Source: Kitasatospora cheerisanensis KCTC 2395 (GTDB taxonomy: Bacteria > Actinomycetota > Actinomycetes > Streptomycetales > Streptomycetaceae). Taken from it: 64,000 nt of DNA. The stretch lies in contig NZ_KK853997.1 in assembly GCF_000696185.1 (NCBI RefSeq), positions 7,185,806 through 7,249,805 of the forward strand, written 5' to 3'. Below are positions 54,122 through 61,079 of this stretch, piece after piece; position 1 is the first letter of the stretch, and each line of letters starts with the position of its first letter. The notes under the pieces are model-generated. The model did not search any database. It was not told the origin of the DNA and saw only the letters and a program-made list of their open reading frames with translations. The position numbers and the translations under genes were made by a program.

Positions 54122-54544
54122 TCAGGGGGACGGGTGCGGCAGCGGGCGGGCCAGCCGCCGGACCTCTTCCAGCCGGGCCGGATCAGGCTCCTGCCGGGTG
54201 AAGAGGTCGTGCCCGACCACCGTCGACTCCCATGCGTCGGGGGCCTCCGCGGACCGGGTCAGCAGCCAGGCCGCCGAGATCCACTCCGCCCCGTTCTCCT
54301 GGTACTGGCCGCTCCACGAGGTCACCGAACCGACGTCGCCGCGCTCGTTGTGCCAGGCCACCGTCCAGCCCACCGCCGTTCCGTGCCCGGTCTGCCCCGG
54401 TGCGACTAGCCGTCCCACCAGCGGGTACGTGCCGCTCGCCCGGCCCGTCGCCGAGACGTACGTCCCGGTCAGCGAACCGTCCGGACCCGCCACCAACCGC
54501 ATGTGCGAACCCAGTTCGCTGTACCAGTCGCCGGTGATGCCCAC
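54122..54544 (-). CDS. Streptavidin-like protein without a signal peptide
   Basis: A 140-residue avidin-family beta-barrel. It aligns along its length with streptavidin: GITGDWYSELGS, GSLTGTYVSATG, GWTVAWHNERG, TSWSGQYQENGAEW, AAWLLTRS and AWESTVVGHDLF. By this alignment the biotin contacts Ser27, Tyr43, Ser45, Trp79, Ser88, Thr90, Trp92, Trp108, Trp120 and Asp128 are kept (here S13, Y29, S31, W64, S73, T75, W77, W93, W105, D113), while Asn23 is Ser and Asn49 is Arg. The GTG at 54544 has GGAGG six bases upstream and starts directly at the barrel, so no secretion signal is present. It is divergent from a pentapeptide-repeat gene. Confidence 0.88.
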   Translation of the reverse strand: MGITGDWYSELGSHMRLVAGPDGSLTGTYVSATGRASGTYPLVGRLVAPGQTGHGTAVGWTVAWHNERGDVGSVTSWSGQYQENGAEWISAAWLLTRSAEAPDAWESTVVGHDLFTRQEPDPARLEEVRRLARPLPHPSP

Positions 54545-54825
54545 GTTGATCCTCCCGCCGCCTCGGTCGGCCCGTCGCCGCGTCCCGCCCGGACGCGCCA
54601 GCCCCCACTGTGCCGCCCCCGGCCGCCCCGGCGGCGGCGACGCGCGGACGGGCCGCGACGGATGACCCGAGCTGCCGACAGCCCGCCCGACGTGGACTGA
54701 CCCCCGGACCGCCCCCGGACCGACCTCCGGACCGACCTCCGGACCGGGCCCCGGGCGGGCGCGGGTGCGCGGCGAGGGAGAATGGTGTCCGAAACGACCG
54801 CCCGCCCCGCAGGAGACCCCGCACC

Positions 54826-56296: not shown

Positions 56297-56869
56297 TCAC
56301 TTGCCGCCGTGCAGCGCGGCGAGCGTCGCCTCGAACGCGGCGCCGGAGTTGCGCGGACGGTTGTACGGCAGCTTGCCCAGCATCGCGCCCATGGCGCAGG
56401 TGTTGGTGGCCGCCGAGAACAGCAGGCCGGCACCGACCGCGGCAGAGACCCAGCGCACGCCGGGGACGGCCAGGTCGATCACCACGCCGGCCAGCACCAG
56501 GGAGCCCGCCACCAGCCGGACCTGGCGGTCCATCGCCCAGCGGACCTTCTCGCCCGGCACCCGGTTCAGCTGCTTGCCGCCGGCCGACCAGGCGGCGGTC
56601 CCGCCGTCGACCAGCAGCGCCGAGATGCCGGCGGCGGCCAGCTGCTCGCACGCGTTCATGGCCCGGGCGCCGGAGGCGCAGGTGATCGCCAGCTCGCCGC
56701 GGGCGGCGGCGGCGCGCAGCGCGGGCAGCGCCCGCGCCAGCTGGTCCAGCGGCACGTTGTGGGCACCGGGAATGTGGCCGCCGGCGAACTCGCCGGGCGA
56801 CCGCACGTCGATGACGGTCAGCTGCTGAAGCCGGGGCTGGAGCTGGTCGACAGTCAGGGGCGTGGTCAT
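56297..56869 (-). CDS. Rhodanese-like/DUF2892 membrane protein
   Basis: A 190-residue fusion. An N-terminal rhodanese domain (about 5-105) has IDVRSPGEFAGGHIPGAHNVPL and the active-site loop ITCASGARA with the persulfide-forming Cys near 63. A C-terminal DUF2892 part (about 115-165) has two helices (VRLVAGSLVLAGVVIDL, WVSAAVGAGLLFSAATN) and NTCAMGAML. Such proteins handle sulfane sulfur at the membrane. It lies 156 bases downstream of TauE in the persulfide cluster. ATG 56869. Confidence 0.88.
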   Translation of the reverse strand: MTTPLTVDQLQPRLQQLTVIDVRSPGEFAGGHIPGAHNVPLDQLARALPALRAAAARGELAITCASGARAMNACEQLAAAGISALLVDGGTAAWSAGGKQLNRVPGEKVRWAMDRQVRLVAGSLVLAGVVIDLAVPGVRWVSAAVGAGLLFSAATNTCAMGAMLGKLPYNRPRNSGAAFEATLAALHGGK

Positions 56870-57025
56870 AGGGGTGGGGGCCTTTCGGGCAGGAGTGACC
56901 CGGCGTGCGGTTGCCGCCGGGCAGGGGAGTGGAGGCGAGGGGGGCCACGCGGAGTGGACGGGCGCCGCGCGGCCGGGACGCTGCGGCCGCCGCGGTCGGA
57001 GCACGGCGGCCACCAGCAGCCGTGG

Positions 57026-58035
57026 TCAGAGCACGGCGTCCACCAGCATCAGGGCGGCCACCGCGAGCAGGGCGGCGGCGAAGATCCGCTGCAGGGCGCG
57101 GCCGGACAGCTTGGACGCCAGCCGCTTGCCGTCCCACGCGCCGAGGATCGCCGCGGCGGCGAACGGGCCGACCACGGACCACGGGATCTCGGCGGCGCCG
57201 CCGAGCCGGGGAAGCAGCGCGGAGAGCGAATTGAGCGTGATCACCAGCAAGCTGGTGCCGATCGCCTCGGCCATCGGGAACGCCAGGAACGACACCAGCG
57301 CGGGCACGGCGAGGAACCCGCCGCCGACGCCCAGCACGCCGGTCGCCGCACCCAGCCCCGCCCCGGCCAGCGCCGACCGCCGCGCGGAGGCGGGAACGGG
57401 TGCCGGAACGGGAGCGGCGGAGTCGGAGTCGGGGTTCTCGCCAGGAAGCGGGAAAGCGTTTTCCCTCTGCGGTTCGTCAACCAGCGGATCCGCGAAGCGA
57501 ACCGTTCCTGAGGCGCCGTCATCGGACGTGAGGACCACGGCAGTCTGCTTCGTGCCCGTCCCGGCCCGAGACAGCTGCGTGGACGCCTGCGCCCGGGCAG
57601 GCGCCGGAACCGCGACCTGGCCCGCGACCAGGCCCGTGGCCCGACCCGCGGCCGCGGCGGCGCGGCGCCGTCGCGGTGTGCCCGAGGCCAGCATCCGCCA
57701 GGCGGCCAGTCCGGCGAGCAGTGCGAACGCGGCGGTCAGGGCGGGCCGGGCAGGTGCCGGGAGAGCGCGCCGCCGAGGGCGGCGAACGGGAGTCCGGCGG
57801 CGCCGAACAGCAGGCCGCTGCGCCAGCGGACCCGTCCGGCCCGGGCGTGCGCGACCAGCCCGGTGAGGGAGGTCACGGCGACGATCAGCAGGCTGGCGGT
57901 GGTCGCGGTGCCGGGCGTCAGGCCCAGCAGGTAGATCAGGGCGGGGACGGCCAGCATGCTGCCGCCGCCGCCGAGTCCGCCGAGGGCCAGCCCGACCACC
58001 GCGCCGGCGATCAGGGCGAGGACGACGGCGGTCAT
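57026..58035 (-). pseudogene. TauE/SafE-type sulfite exporter with long central loop, frameshifted
   Basis: With one base restored this is a 336-residue transporter. The N-terminal half shows ALIAGAVVGLALGGLGGGGSML (about 7-28) and GTATTASLLIVAVTSLTGL; the second half repeats the motif as GLGAATGVLGVGGGFLAVP, followed by AEAIGTSLLVITLNSLSAL. The frame breaks after SRHLP at GGG (57748-57750; four would fit). Between the halves is a disordered loop of about 95 residues containing one GGGAAAGCG-type palindrome. ATG 58035 overlaps the rhodanese stop (ATGA). It probably exports sulfite or thiosulfate made by the cluster. Confidence 0.85.
57450..57465. repeat. GGGAAAGCGTTTTCCC palindrome, copy 11, within the TauE gene
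   Basis: A single copy of the palindrome family with one changed base. It is read here as ENAFP on the minus strand, a different frame from the glycosyltransferase copies. Confidence 0.65.
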
Positions 58036-58403
58036 ATCGCGGTGCCGCAGGGGCACGCGCCCTGGTGCGAGGGCAGCCCGGCCTCCAGCCAGGCGCGCAT
58101 CCCGCCCGTCACGTTGACCGTCCGGACGCCGCGCGCGTTCAGCACGTCGGTGGCGACCTGGGAGCGGTTCCCGGAACGGCACAGGGCCAGTACCAGCGGG
58201 CCTTCGGCGTCCGGGCCGTCGGCGCCGGCGGAACTGCCGAAGCCGTCCAGGCTGCCGAGCGGGACGAGCACGGCGCCGGGTGCGTGCACCTCGGCGTACT
58301 CCGCGGGCTCGCGGACGTCGAGCAGCAGCGCCTCGCCGGCGGTGGCCAGGCGGTGCGCCTCGGCGGGGTCGATCTGCGCGGGCGGCTGGTGGAACCGGGC
58401 CAC
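58032..58403 (-). CDS. Single-domain rhodanese
   Basis: A 123-residue sulfurtransferase. Seen: EALLLDVREPAEYAEVHAPGAVLVPLG (about 25-51) and the active loop LALCRSGNRSQVA (Cys at about 79). The C-terminal HQGACPCGTA adds two Cys, as in CstA-linked rhodaneses. GTG 58403 has GGAGG five bases upstream. It heads the leftward persulfide operon and overlaps TauE. Confidence 0.9.
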   Translation of the reverse strand: MARFHQPPAQIDPAEAHRLATAGEALLLDVREPAEYAEVHAPGAVLVPLGSLDGFGSSAGADGPDAEGPLVLALCRSGNRSQVATDVLNARGVRTVNVTGGMRAWLEAGLPSHQGACPCGTAI

Positions 58404-58519
58404 GGGGTCCTCCTGGGCGGTGGTGAGGGTGAGGCGGTGCGGCGTCGTGCGCACGGGGTGGTGCGGACGGATTCGTGCGGGTCCTGCGGCAGTTCGCGGC
58501 GGCGGGGTGCCCCGGGAAG

Positions 58520-58535
58520 ATACGGGCAGGGGTAT
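58520..58535. promoter_or_regulatory. CsoR/CstR-type operator 1 (ATAC-N8-GTAT)
   Basis: ATACGGGCAGGGGTAT in the divergent rhodanese/dioxygenase gap, nearest to the rhodanese gene. Together with operator 2 it forms a larger dyad of GGGGTATAT (58529) and ATATACCCC (58552). Confidence 0.7.
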
Positions 58536-58553
58536 ATCGTTGGTGTCGAGCAT

Positions 58554-58569
58554 ATACCCCCACCGGTAT
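58554..58569. promoter_or_regulatory. CsoR/CstR-type operator 2 (ATAC-N8-GTAT)
   Basis: ATACCCCCACCGGTAT, centred 34 bp from operator 1. Confidence 0.7.
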
Positions 58570-58607
58570 CGACCGGGATCCGCTAAGGTCGGGAACTGCC
58601 TGCAATA

Positions 58608-58623
58608 ATACCCATGGGGGTAT
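58608..58623. promoter_or_regulatory. CsoR/CstR-type operator 3 (perfect ATACCC-ATGG-GGGTAT)
   Basis: The best copy: six-base perfect arms around four bases, on the side of the dioxygenase gene, 54 bp from operator 2. Confidence 0.8.
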
Positions 58624-58665
58624 CGACGGGTCGAGGGACGGGCAGCGCCCGGACCCCCGCAGCAC

Positions 58666-58719
58666 CCGCGCCCGCATCCGGGTCCGCGCCCGCATTCGGG
58701 TCCGGGCCCGCATCCGGGT
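58666..58719. repeat. Three tandem 18-bp repeats in the dioxygenase leader
   Basis: CCGCGCCCGCATCCGGGT at 58666, with two near copies at 58684 and 58702, between operator 3 and the dioxygenase start. Confidence 0.8.
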
Positions 58720-58777
58720 CCGTACCCGAACCCCCACCCTCCAGCCGTGACCGGCCGACGCAGAGATGAGGACATCC

Positions 58778-60148
58778 GTGTTCTTCGCCCAGTACTACCT
58801 CGACTGCCTCTCCCAGGCCTCGTACCTGATCGCGGACGAGACCACCGGCCGCGCCGTCGTGGTCGACCCGCGCCGGGACGTGGACGAGTACCTGGCCGAG
58901 GCCGAAGCGCGCGGCTTCACGGTCGAGGGCGTCATCAACACGCACTTCCACGCCGACTTCCTCTCCGGCCACCTCGAACTCGCCGCCCGCACCGGCGCCT
59001 GGATCGGCTACGGCCGGCGCGCCGAGACCGAGTACCCGATCCGCAAGCTCGCCGAGGGCGAGCGGATCAGCCTCGGCACGGTCGAGCTGGAGATCCTGGA
59101 GACGCCCGGCCACACCCCCGAGTCGATCAGCGTGCTGGTGCGCGAGAACGCCGAGGACACCGTCCCGTACGGCGTGCTCACCGGTGACGCGCTGTTCATC
59201 GGCGACGTCGGCCGCCCCGACCTGCTGGCCTCCGCCGGCGTCACCGCCGACGAGCTGGGCCGGATGCTGTACGACAGCGTCCAGCACAAGCTGATGGGCC
59301 TGCCCGACGAGGTCCGGGTCTACCCCGCGCACGGCGCCGGCTCCGCCTGCGGCAAGAACCTGTCCACCGAGCGGCAGTCCACCATCGGGCAGCAGCGCGC
59401 CACCAACTACGCCTGCGCGCCGATGGGCGAGGACGAGTTCGTGGCCATCGTCACCGCCGGACAGCCCGCCGCCCCCGGCTACTTCGGCTACGACGCCGAC
59501 CTCAACCGGCGCGAGCGCGAGCTGTTCGACGCCGAGGCCCTCGCCGCCCCGCTGGACGCCGAGGCCTTCCTCGCCCGCCGCGCCGAGGGCGCCGTCGTGG
59601 TCGACGCCCGCGACCCGCTCGAGTTCGCCGCCGGCCACCTGGCCGGCGCCATCAACATCCCCGCCGACGGACGCTTCGCCGAGCAGGCCGGCACCGTCCT
59701 CGACCCGGCCTGGCCGCTGCTGGTGGTCGCCCCCGAGGGCCGCGAGCAGGAGACCGTCACCCGGCTCGCCCGGATCGGCTTCGACCGGGTCGCCGGCCAC
59801 CTCGCCGACCCGGAGACCGCGTTCCGCTCGGTGCCCGAGCAGATGCGCCAGGCCGCCCGCCGCACCGTCGCCGACCTGCGCGCCGAACTCGCGGGCGACG
59901 AACCGCCGTTGGTCCTGGACGTGCGCGGCGCCGGGGAGCGCGAGGGCGGCCTGATCCCCGGCTCGATGCACCTCCCGCTGGCCGAACTCCCGCAGCGCCT
60001 GGCCGAGATACCGCAGGACCGGCCCGTCGTCGTGCACTGCGCCGGCGGCCACCGCTCGTCCATCGCGGCGAGCCTGCTGCGCCACCACGGCCACCCGCAG
60101 ACCTCCGACCTGCTCGGCGGCTACGGCGCGTGGGAGACCGCGGTCTGA
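58778..60148 (+). CDS. Persulfide dioxygenase fused to two rhodanese domains
   Basis: A 456-residue protein. The metallo-beta-lactamase part (about 1-240) has THFHADFLSGH (about 47-57), ETPGHTPESIS and TGDALFIGDVGRPD (about 133-146), as in ETHE1-like persulfide dioxygenases. Two rhodanese domains follow: about 255-345 (VVDARDPLEFAAGHLAGAI; its active loop VVAPEGRE lacks Cys) and about 365-456 (LDVRGAGEREGGLIPGSM with active loop VHCAGGHRSS, Cys present). It would oxidise persulfides to sulfite. I chose GTG 58778 (GAGGAC upstream, typical FFAQYYLDCLSQASYL start) over ATG 58766. Confidence 0.9.
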   Translation: MFFAQYYLDCLSQASYLIADETTGRAVVVDPRRDVDEYLAEAEARGFTVEGVINTHFHADFLSGHLELAARTGAWIGYGRRAETEYPIRKLAEGERISLGTVELEILETPGHTPESISVLVRENAEDTVPYGVLTGDALFIGDVGRPDLLASAGVTADELGRMLYDSVQHKLMGLPDEVRVYPAHGAGSACGKNLSTERQSTIGQQRATNYACAPMGEDEFVAIVTAGQPAAPGYFGYDADLNRRERELFDAEALAAPLDAEAFLARRAEGAVVVDARDPLEFAAGHLAGAINIPADGRFAEQAGTVLDPAWPLLVVAPEGREQETVTRLARIGFDRVAGHLADPETAFRSVPEQMRQAARRTVADLRAELAGDEPPLVLDVRGAGEREGGLIPGSMHLPLAELPQRLAEIPQDRPVVVHCAGGHRSSIAASLLRHHGHPQTSDLLGGYGAWETAV

Positions 60149-60206
60149 CCGCGACCGACCCCACCCCGACCGGTGGGCGGGAATGCACCGCCCACCGTCC
60201 CGGTTG

Positions 60207-60543
<337 letters not shown>

Positions 60544-60565
60544 GCCGAGACTGCGAGGCTCGCCC

Positions 60566-60632
60566 TGAGCCCGCGAGGCTCGCGCCGAGTCCTCGGTGCC
60601 GGCGCTGAGTCCGCGAGGCTCGCGCCGAGTCC
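60566..60632. repeat. Two 27-bp direct repeats between the CstR copies
   Basis: TGAGYCCGCGAGGCTCGCGC plus CGAGTCC starts at 60566 and again at 60606 (40 bp apart, one difference). Each unit contains GCGAGGCTCGC, a short dyad. They lie between the two tail-to-tail repressor genes. Confidence 0.75.
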
Positions 60633-60779
60633 GCGGATGCTTGGAGTCCGTGCCCCGGGTGCGCAGTGGCCGCGCCCGGGGTCCGGCGTGCGTGCGTTCG
60701 TCGCCGGCCCGGTCGCTGGCCTGGTGGCCGGCCCGGTCGCCGGACCGATCAACGGACCGGCGCGTCCGCCGGGGCCGGG

Positions 60780-61079
<300 letters not shown>

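Follow-up and report, generated by a model that had tools for sequence, protein, structure and literature searches.

The window analysed here, a stretch of 64,000 nucleotides from Kitasatospora cheerisanensis KCTC 2395, encodes an avidin-family protein that lacks an export signal and carries, near its C-terminus, a conserved His-Pro dipeptide at the place of an Asn-Pro in streptavidin. We give about even odds (roughly 0.5) to the reading that the protein is a tetrameric avidin of the cytosol which binds biotin and uses its tail to close its own pocket. The gene is no oddity, since it is one of 19 intact leaderless proteins of the same kind, which we call type I (the window protein is counted in).

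A leaderless avidin-family gene

The open reading frame runs on the minus strand from a GTG at 54544 to a stop at 54122, the stop being included in the coordinates, and its product has 140 amino acids (Table 1). Genes were called with a home-made script, not with a standard gene finder. A sequence-only reading of this DNA had placed the gene at 54122-54544, which is correct, and had named no strand; it had also taken the start to be fixed by a GGAGG and to lie directly at the barrel, and both points are borne out by the GGAGG at 54551-54555 and by comparison with relatives. An AGGAGG or GGAGG stands at the equivalent position in the three closest orthologues. Among close orthologues the changes are biased to the third codon position, and whole-gene dN/dS is 0.10-0.18 (six pairs from four close Kitasatospora genomes). 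The genome of the host has a single match to PF01382 at E <= 10, which is this gene.

Table 1. Positions in the window of the avidin-family gene, its ribosome-binding site and the residues and segments discussed
Feature	Position	Strand	Basis
Leaderless streptavidin-like avidin-family gene	54122..54544	-	PF01382, PDB streptavidin matches, dN/dS, orthologues
GGAGG ribosome-binding site	54551..54555	-	Six bases 5' of the GTG
Ser9, at streptavidin position 23 (Asn there)	54518..54520	-	Alignment column
Arg35, at streptavidin position 49 (Asn there)	54440..54442	-	Alignment column
Predicted C-terminal helix, residues 122-131, at the site of the 'C-Lid' helix of streptavidin C1	54152..54181	-	AlphaFold2 model
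His137-Pro138, aligned with streptavidin Asn152-Pro153; candidate pocket plug	54131..54136	-	MAFFT alignments, site rates, spacing

The product matches the Pfam Avidin profile (PF01382) with an E value of 2.5e-25 and a score of 89.5 bits, where the cut-off is 24, over profile positions 2-116 of 116. PDB streptavidin chains match it at about 1e-34, and it is 48% identical to the streptavidin of genome G301 over 130 residues. An AlphaFold2 model built from 30 sequences has a mean pLDDT of 84 and consists of eight strands and a C-terminal helix; among the 50 structural matches listed, chains of streptavidin and tamavidin 2 reach Z scores of 18.5-19.1. Of the marks of the avidin family, a score above the profile cut-off, an eight-stranded barrel and ten contact residues including the four Trp are found, and Trp120, which is lent to the neighbouring subunit in the streptavidin tetramer, is among those kept. 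The score against the NCBIfam streptavidin equivalog NF047623 is 137.5 bits, under the cut-off of 300, and the secretion signal of streptavidin proper is absent. Every sequence test made classes the protein as an avidin, yet not as streptavidin proper.

The absence of an export signal is indicated by several observations. The three closest orthologues differ in their upstream DNA from the window and from one another, the gaps having lengths not divisible by three, and the reading frame is closed one codon 5' of the start in G929 and six codons 5' of it in G1066 and in Streptomyces sp. NBC_01562, so that a signal peptide is impossible in these three. In all 19 type I proteins the frames, as read, start three or four residues ahead of the barrel. 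Non-triplet gaps, closed frames and a barrel-adjacent start together support the cytosolic location that had been proposed from the window alone, and on the first two an N-terminal export signal is rejected. A misread start, with the true one lying upstream and adding such a signal, is very improbable: the frame does stay open far upstream (415 codons), as is common for G+C-rich DNA, but it contains no visible hydrophobic stretch, the GGAGG stands at the GTG, and both the gaps between close orthologues and the frames closed shortly before the start in relatives argue otherwise. Lack of an export signal is a minority trait among known avidins and is not new. About half of the putative bacterial avidins surveyed have a predicted signal peptide (PMC8033661), so a leaderless avidin is unusual yet precedented, and those surveyed proteins without a predicted signal resemble the window protein in this respect; the main text of that survey makes no mention of Kitasatospora.

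With mature streptavidin as the reference row, ten biotin contacts are kept (S27, Y43, S45, W79, S88, T90, W92, W108, W120 and D128), and Asn23 and Asn49 are replaced by Ser and Arg; the alignment confirms in full what had been noticed at first sight. The proposed search for orthologues with the same Ser/Arg pair gave a divided answer. Residue 49 is changed in all 19 type I proteins (Arg in 7, His in 11, Gln in 1), but Ser23 is present in only 7 and Asn23 is retained in the other 12, so Ser23 is confined to certain lineages; in the five secreted streptavidins both positions are occupied by Asn. Outside this contact table are G833, the fragment in G202 (internal stop), a weak partial match in G162, a frameshifted type I copy in G021 and two plasmid copies identical to the G1066 protein. 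The changes at 23 and 49 are thus real but not one linked change, and a basic residue 49 marks the leaderless type. Ser88 and Thr90, which are Ser73 and Thr75 in the window protein, are retained in 19/19 type I proteins; one type I protein, from G146, has lost Trp92. Residue 49 of streptavidin contacts biotin chiefly through its backbone, so Arg49 need not abolish binding. Because ten contacts including four Trp are kept, ordinary biotin is the simplest candidate ligand, and the data do not call for a changed one.

The C-terminal tail

The tail beyond the barrel had been missed in the sequence-only reading. The window protein has a C-terminal extension over the stretch equivalent to streptavidin residues 150-153, a mark of avidins with an intrinsic ligand, and the helix before it has its counterpart at residues 137-145 of a streptavidin control model. 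In MAFFT alignments an xHP motif occupies the Asn152-Pro153 column in 14 of the 19 type I proteins, and Asn-Pro occupies it in 5/5 secreted proteins. The five type I proteins without His-Pro have short tails (G067, G053 and G080) or other tails (G929 and G1022); in a second group of leaderless paralogues, type II, the tail is absent in 6/6.

Spacing was compared among nine leaderless representatives with at least 20 residues beyond Asp128 and four secreted ones. His-Pro lies 24 residues past Asp128 in five of the nine, at 23 and 27 residues in two and nowhere in the remaining two; Asn-Pro lies exactly 24 residues past it in all four secreted representatives. When the tails were shuffled, 18 of 20000 runs reached a dipeptide common to 7/9, a frequency from which shared ancestry is not removed. 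Site rates, which take the tree into account, were lowest, among the 23 columns of the window tail, at column 123 (0.49), Pro138 (0.52) and His137 (0.56), the other tail columns lying mostly at 0.8-2.3. Tail dN/dS is 0.06-0.22 (six pairs). By these values the tail evolves under purifying selection.

The motif recalls artificial ligands. HPQ and HPM are well-known peptide ligands of streptavidin, and the His and Gln of HPQ form bonds to Ser88 and Thr90 (PMC5608804). Strep-tag, Strep-tag II and the HPQ/HPM peptides share their His-Pro core with the window tail, but they are artificial and act in trans. The leaderless tails read PHPSP (the window protein), SHPS, SHP followed by the end of the protein, SHPH, SHPT, DHPA and SHPM; SHP is found in 9/19 leaderless proteins and SHPM in two of these. 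The window tail has neither Gln nor Met after its His-Pro, unlike the selected peptides. Four records carry SHPM, those of G1066 and G856 and of the plasmids from Streptomyces sp. NBC_01562 and NBC_01340; the protein is identical in three of them. SHPQ, the exact middle of Strep-tag II, occurs once only, in the tail piece of the type I gene of G021 (L064:9662-10149, minus strand), which is frameshifted or carries a sequencing error.

Structure prediction does not place the tail. Residues 135-140 of the window model are under pLDDT 50, and in the streptavidin control model residues 151-159 average about 50 although insertion of this tail into the pocket is established; since the control is equally vague here, AlphaFold2 neither supports nor contradicts a plug.

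Self-plugging is known from secreted relatives. Residues Asn150-Pro153 of full-length streptavidin fold back into the biotin site of their own subunit, where weak biotinylated ligands meet their competition (PMC3344845, PMC5398887). This full-length protein, from Streptomyces avidinii (PDB 2BC3), resembles the window protein in fold, in ten contacts and in its C-terminal extension, but it is secreted by way of a signal peptide and has Asn23, Asn49 and NP in place of HP. Streptavidin C1 of Streptomyces cinnamonensis (PDB 7CPZ and 7CQ0), whose C-Lid helix and tail enter its own pocket, likewise has NP where the window protein has HP; it was found in culture broth and its tail reads VTSANPPAS, whereas the window protein is leaderless and ends in PHPSP (PMC7924230). 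As described there, -NP- is the only part common to the tails of C1 and streptavidin and was proposed as the key; the C1 tail peptide binds with a Kd of about 49 nM and biotin with about 3 pM, and once biotin occupies the pocket the tail becomes disordered, and it reportedly has no effect on the binding of biotin (PMC7924230). Two C1-like sequences (G301b and G811b) have Tyr for Trp79 and Ala for Thr90, both of which the window protein keeps. Bradavidin of Bradyrhizobium has a C-terminal intrinsic ligand, as proposed here for the window protein, but it has a signal peptide and its Brad-tag is unrelated in sequence and bound to the neighbouring subunit; the tail was proposed to spare the biotinylated carrier proteins of its own cell (PMC3344845). 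The present analysis adds a group of leaderless proteins for which such protection would be needed and in which a conserved His-Pro replaces Asn-Pro. No description of such a group was found in the open-access papers searched.

A proposed self-plugging cytosolic avidin and its alternatives

According to the reading that we favour, the barrel and its contacts would hold biotin in the manner of streptavidin, probably with slightly lower affinity because of Ser23. The C-terminal helix and the xHP tail would fold back and put His-Pro into the pocket, much like the Asn-Pro of full-length streptavidin. Free biotin could displace this plug, and biotin attached to a large protein such as the biotin carboxylase carrier would compete poorly, so that the cell could hold an internal avidin without stripping its own carboxylases while free biotin is lowered or buffered. 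Family membership, the lack of a signal peptide, the changed residues and the conserved His-Pro tail with its homologous position are observed; the entry of the tail, the identity of the ligand, the tetramer and the role we infer. Action on biotinylated carboxylases, which had been suggested from the sequence, becomes less likely if the tail plugs the pocket, as self-plugging tails are reported to disfavour large biotinylated ligands (PMC3344845). The natural job of avidins is still described as an open question (PMC8033661), and an avidin that shares its cell with biotin-dependent enzymes would open that question to gene deletion in a harmless soil bacterium. A natural His-Pro tail resembling the artificial ligands of streptavidin could also lead to tunable, self-releasing affinity pairs.

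Other readings account for part of these observations. The protein might be an ordinary biotin trap, stored in the cell and released on lysis or grazing against fungi, bacteria or grazers, with a tail left over from a streptavidin ancestor; we think this rather unlikely. The secreted streptavidins C1 and C2 inhibit Fusarium, an effect abolished by biotin (PMC7924230), secreted streptavidins adjoin biotin-antagonist gene clusters (PMC13111796), and a patchy presence in genomes and on plasmids (see below) fits a defence gene. A leftover tail, however, should not stay conserved at His-Pro, five lineages of differing context have no recognised defence or biosynthetic neighbours, and the Streptomyces-type loci sit among stress genes. 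That the tail owes its conservation to packing or solubility and is never inserted into the pocket seems unlikely to us: the model lends no support to insertion and five of 19 proteins lack the dipeptide, but His-Pro stands at the site of the pocket-bound Asn-Pro in crystal structures of two relatives and is the very dipeptide of the selected pocket ligands.

That the pocket has been retuned to a different small molecule such as biotin sulfoxide, desthiobiotin or a biotin antimetabolite, along lines suggested from the sequence alone, is quite improbable. It would explain why Asn49 has become a basic residue or Gln throughout type I and Asn23 has become Ser in 7/19, and it finds an echo in the type II paralogues, where Phe replaces Tyr43 and Pro replaces Ser45 in 6/6. 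Against it stand the ten other contacts of the window protein, the Asn23 of the majority (12/19) and a neighbourhood in which no gene hints at such a ligand. Compensation for biotin auxotrophy was considered as a role and is ruled out by bioB, found in 69/70 Kitasatospora genomes including that of the host; with bioB present, the host makes and uses biotin.

Distribution and genomic neighbourhood

Matches to the window avidin were found in 12/70 genomes of its own genus, among them the relatives K. griseola, with its orthologue at locus L022, and Kitasatospora sp. CB01950, in 18/394 genomes of the family and in 10/392 Streptomyces genomes; in a sample of the phylum only one genome of 396, its own, had a match. 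The ten Streptomyces matches comprise five intact leaderless type I proteins, three secreted proteins, one fragment and one not classed. In the avidin tree the inner branches that would order leaderless and secreted proteins have support of at most 61. Plasmid matches fall in 84 records (45 from Xanthomonas, 37 from Burkholderia and 2 from Streptomyces). A phage or viral origin was rejected, as no phage genome matched the window avidin, 0/16 candidate stretches in viral contigs were confirmed and no PHROGs family was found.

Around the gene in the window, the neighbouring families are a SpoIIE-type phosphatase, a pentapeptide protein, rhodanese, TauE, a persulfide-dioxygenase-like protein and a CsoR-like regulator; no link to biotin was found among them. 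Positions 56297-61046 form a sulfur cluster of rhodaneses, TauE-type transporters and a persulfide-dioxygenase-like protein with rhodanese domains, flanked by two near-identical CsoR-type regulators in opposite orientation. Among the Kitasatospora type I contexts, the pentapeptide protein and sulfur genes recur in six genomes and another block is common to four. The persulfide-dioxygenase-like neighbour is present at 6/12 Kitasatospora type I loci vs 0/20 controls, which is one inherited locus and counts once.

Six stress families (USP, CBS, HSP20, PPDK, class II-like RNR and the S30AE C-terminal domain, all from Pfam) were scored near avidin genes. They occur at 7/7 Streptomyces-type loci vs 1/20 same-genome controls (Fisher p 9e-6), a value to be read with the facts that the markers were picked after reading the loci and that the seven loci make up three lineages. 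One of these lineages, G076 (Streptomyces humicola), was assigned to another genus by the genome grouping used. Kitasatospora loci show no excess (1/12 vs 2/20 controls), and the counts are 0/3 at secreted and 1/6 at type II loci; at the single locus from a further genus (G080) a CBS protein is encoded, and none of the six families was found in the window. A DevR-type box (GGGAC-spacer-GTCCC) was sought before 22 start sites, where it gave only two unconvincing G+C-rich matches, both before the G080 gene, and a looser pattern gave one, before that of G013. The stress and dormancy neighbours of the Streptomyces-type relatives suggest a use in slow or resting growth, which is not seen at the window locus. 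More tentatively, and with a low likelihood in our view, the proteins would form a streptomycete class of cytosolic avidins with a Strep-tag-like latch, a sink for free biotin that spares carboxylases and is on together with dormancy genes in the Streptomyces-type relatives, where biotin would be withdrawn or stored during a pause in fatty-acid synthesis; evolution would then have reached the same His-Pro core as peptide libraries did.

Several individual loci deserve mention. In S. humicola (L060:9637-10283, minus strand) the start of the avidin gene overlaps the stop of a gene for an S30AE C-terminal-domain protein of the ribosome hibernation type; an Hsp20 gene lies downstream and a ribonucleotide reductase gene nearby. 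A linear Streptomyces plasmid of 64 kb and genome G1066 share one avidin region (L091 and L088), which adjoins a group II intron reverse transcriptase; the region is mobile. The type II leaderless avidins, which have no tail, lie at around 10 kb in six loci (L065, L066, L067, L068, L069 and L070) of five Kitasatospora genomes; two of them have Glu for Asp128, and five of the six loci place the avidin next to a small gene, of which the one copy tested has no Pfam match. A plasmid avidin of Burkholderia glumae (L093:1402-1863) has an export-signal-like start and stands between genes for a type I polyketide synthase and an MFS transporter, as if it were part of a natural-product cluster.
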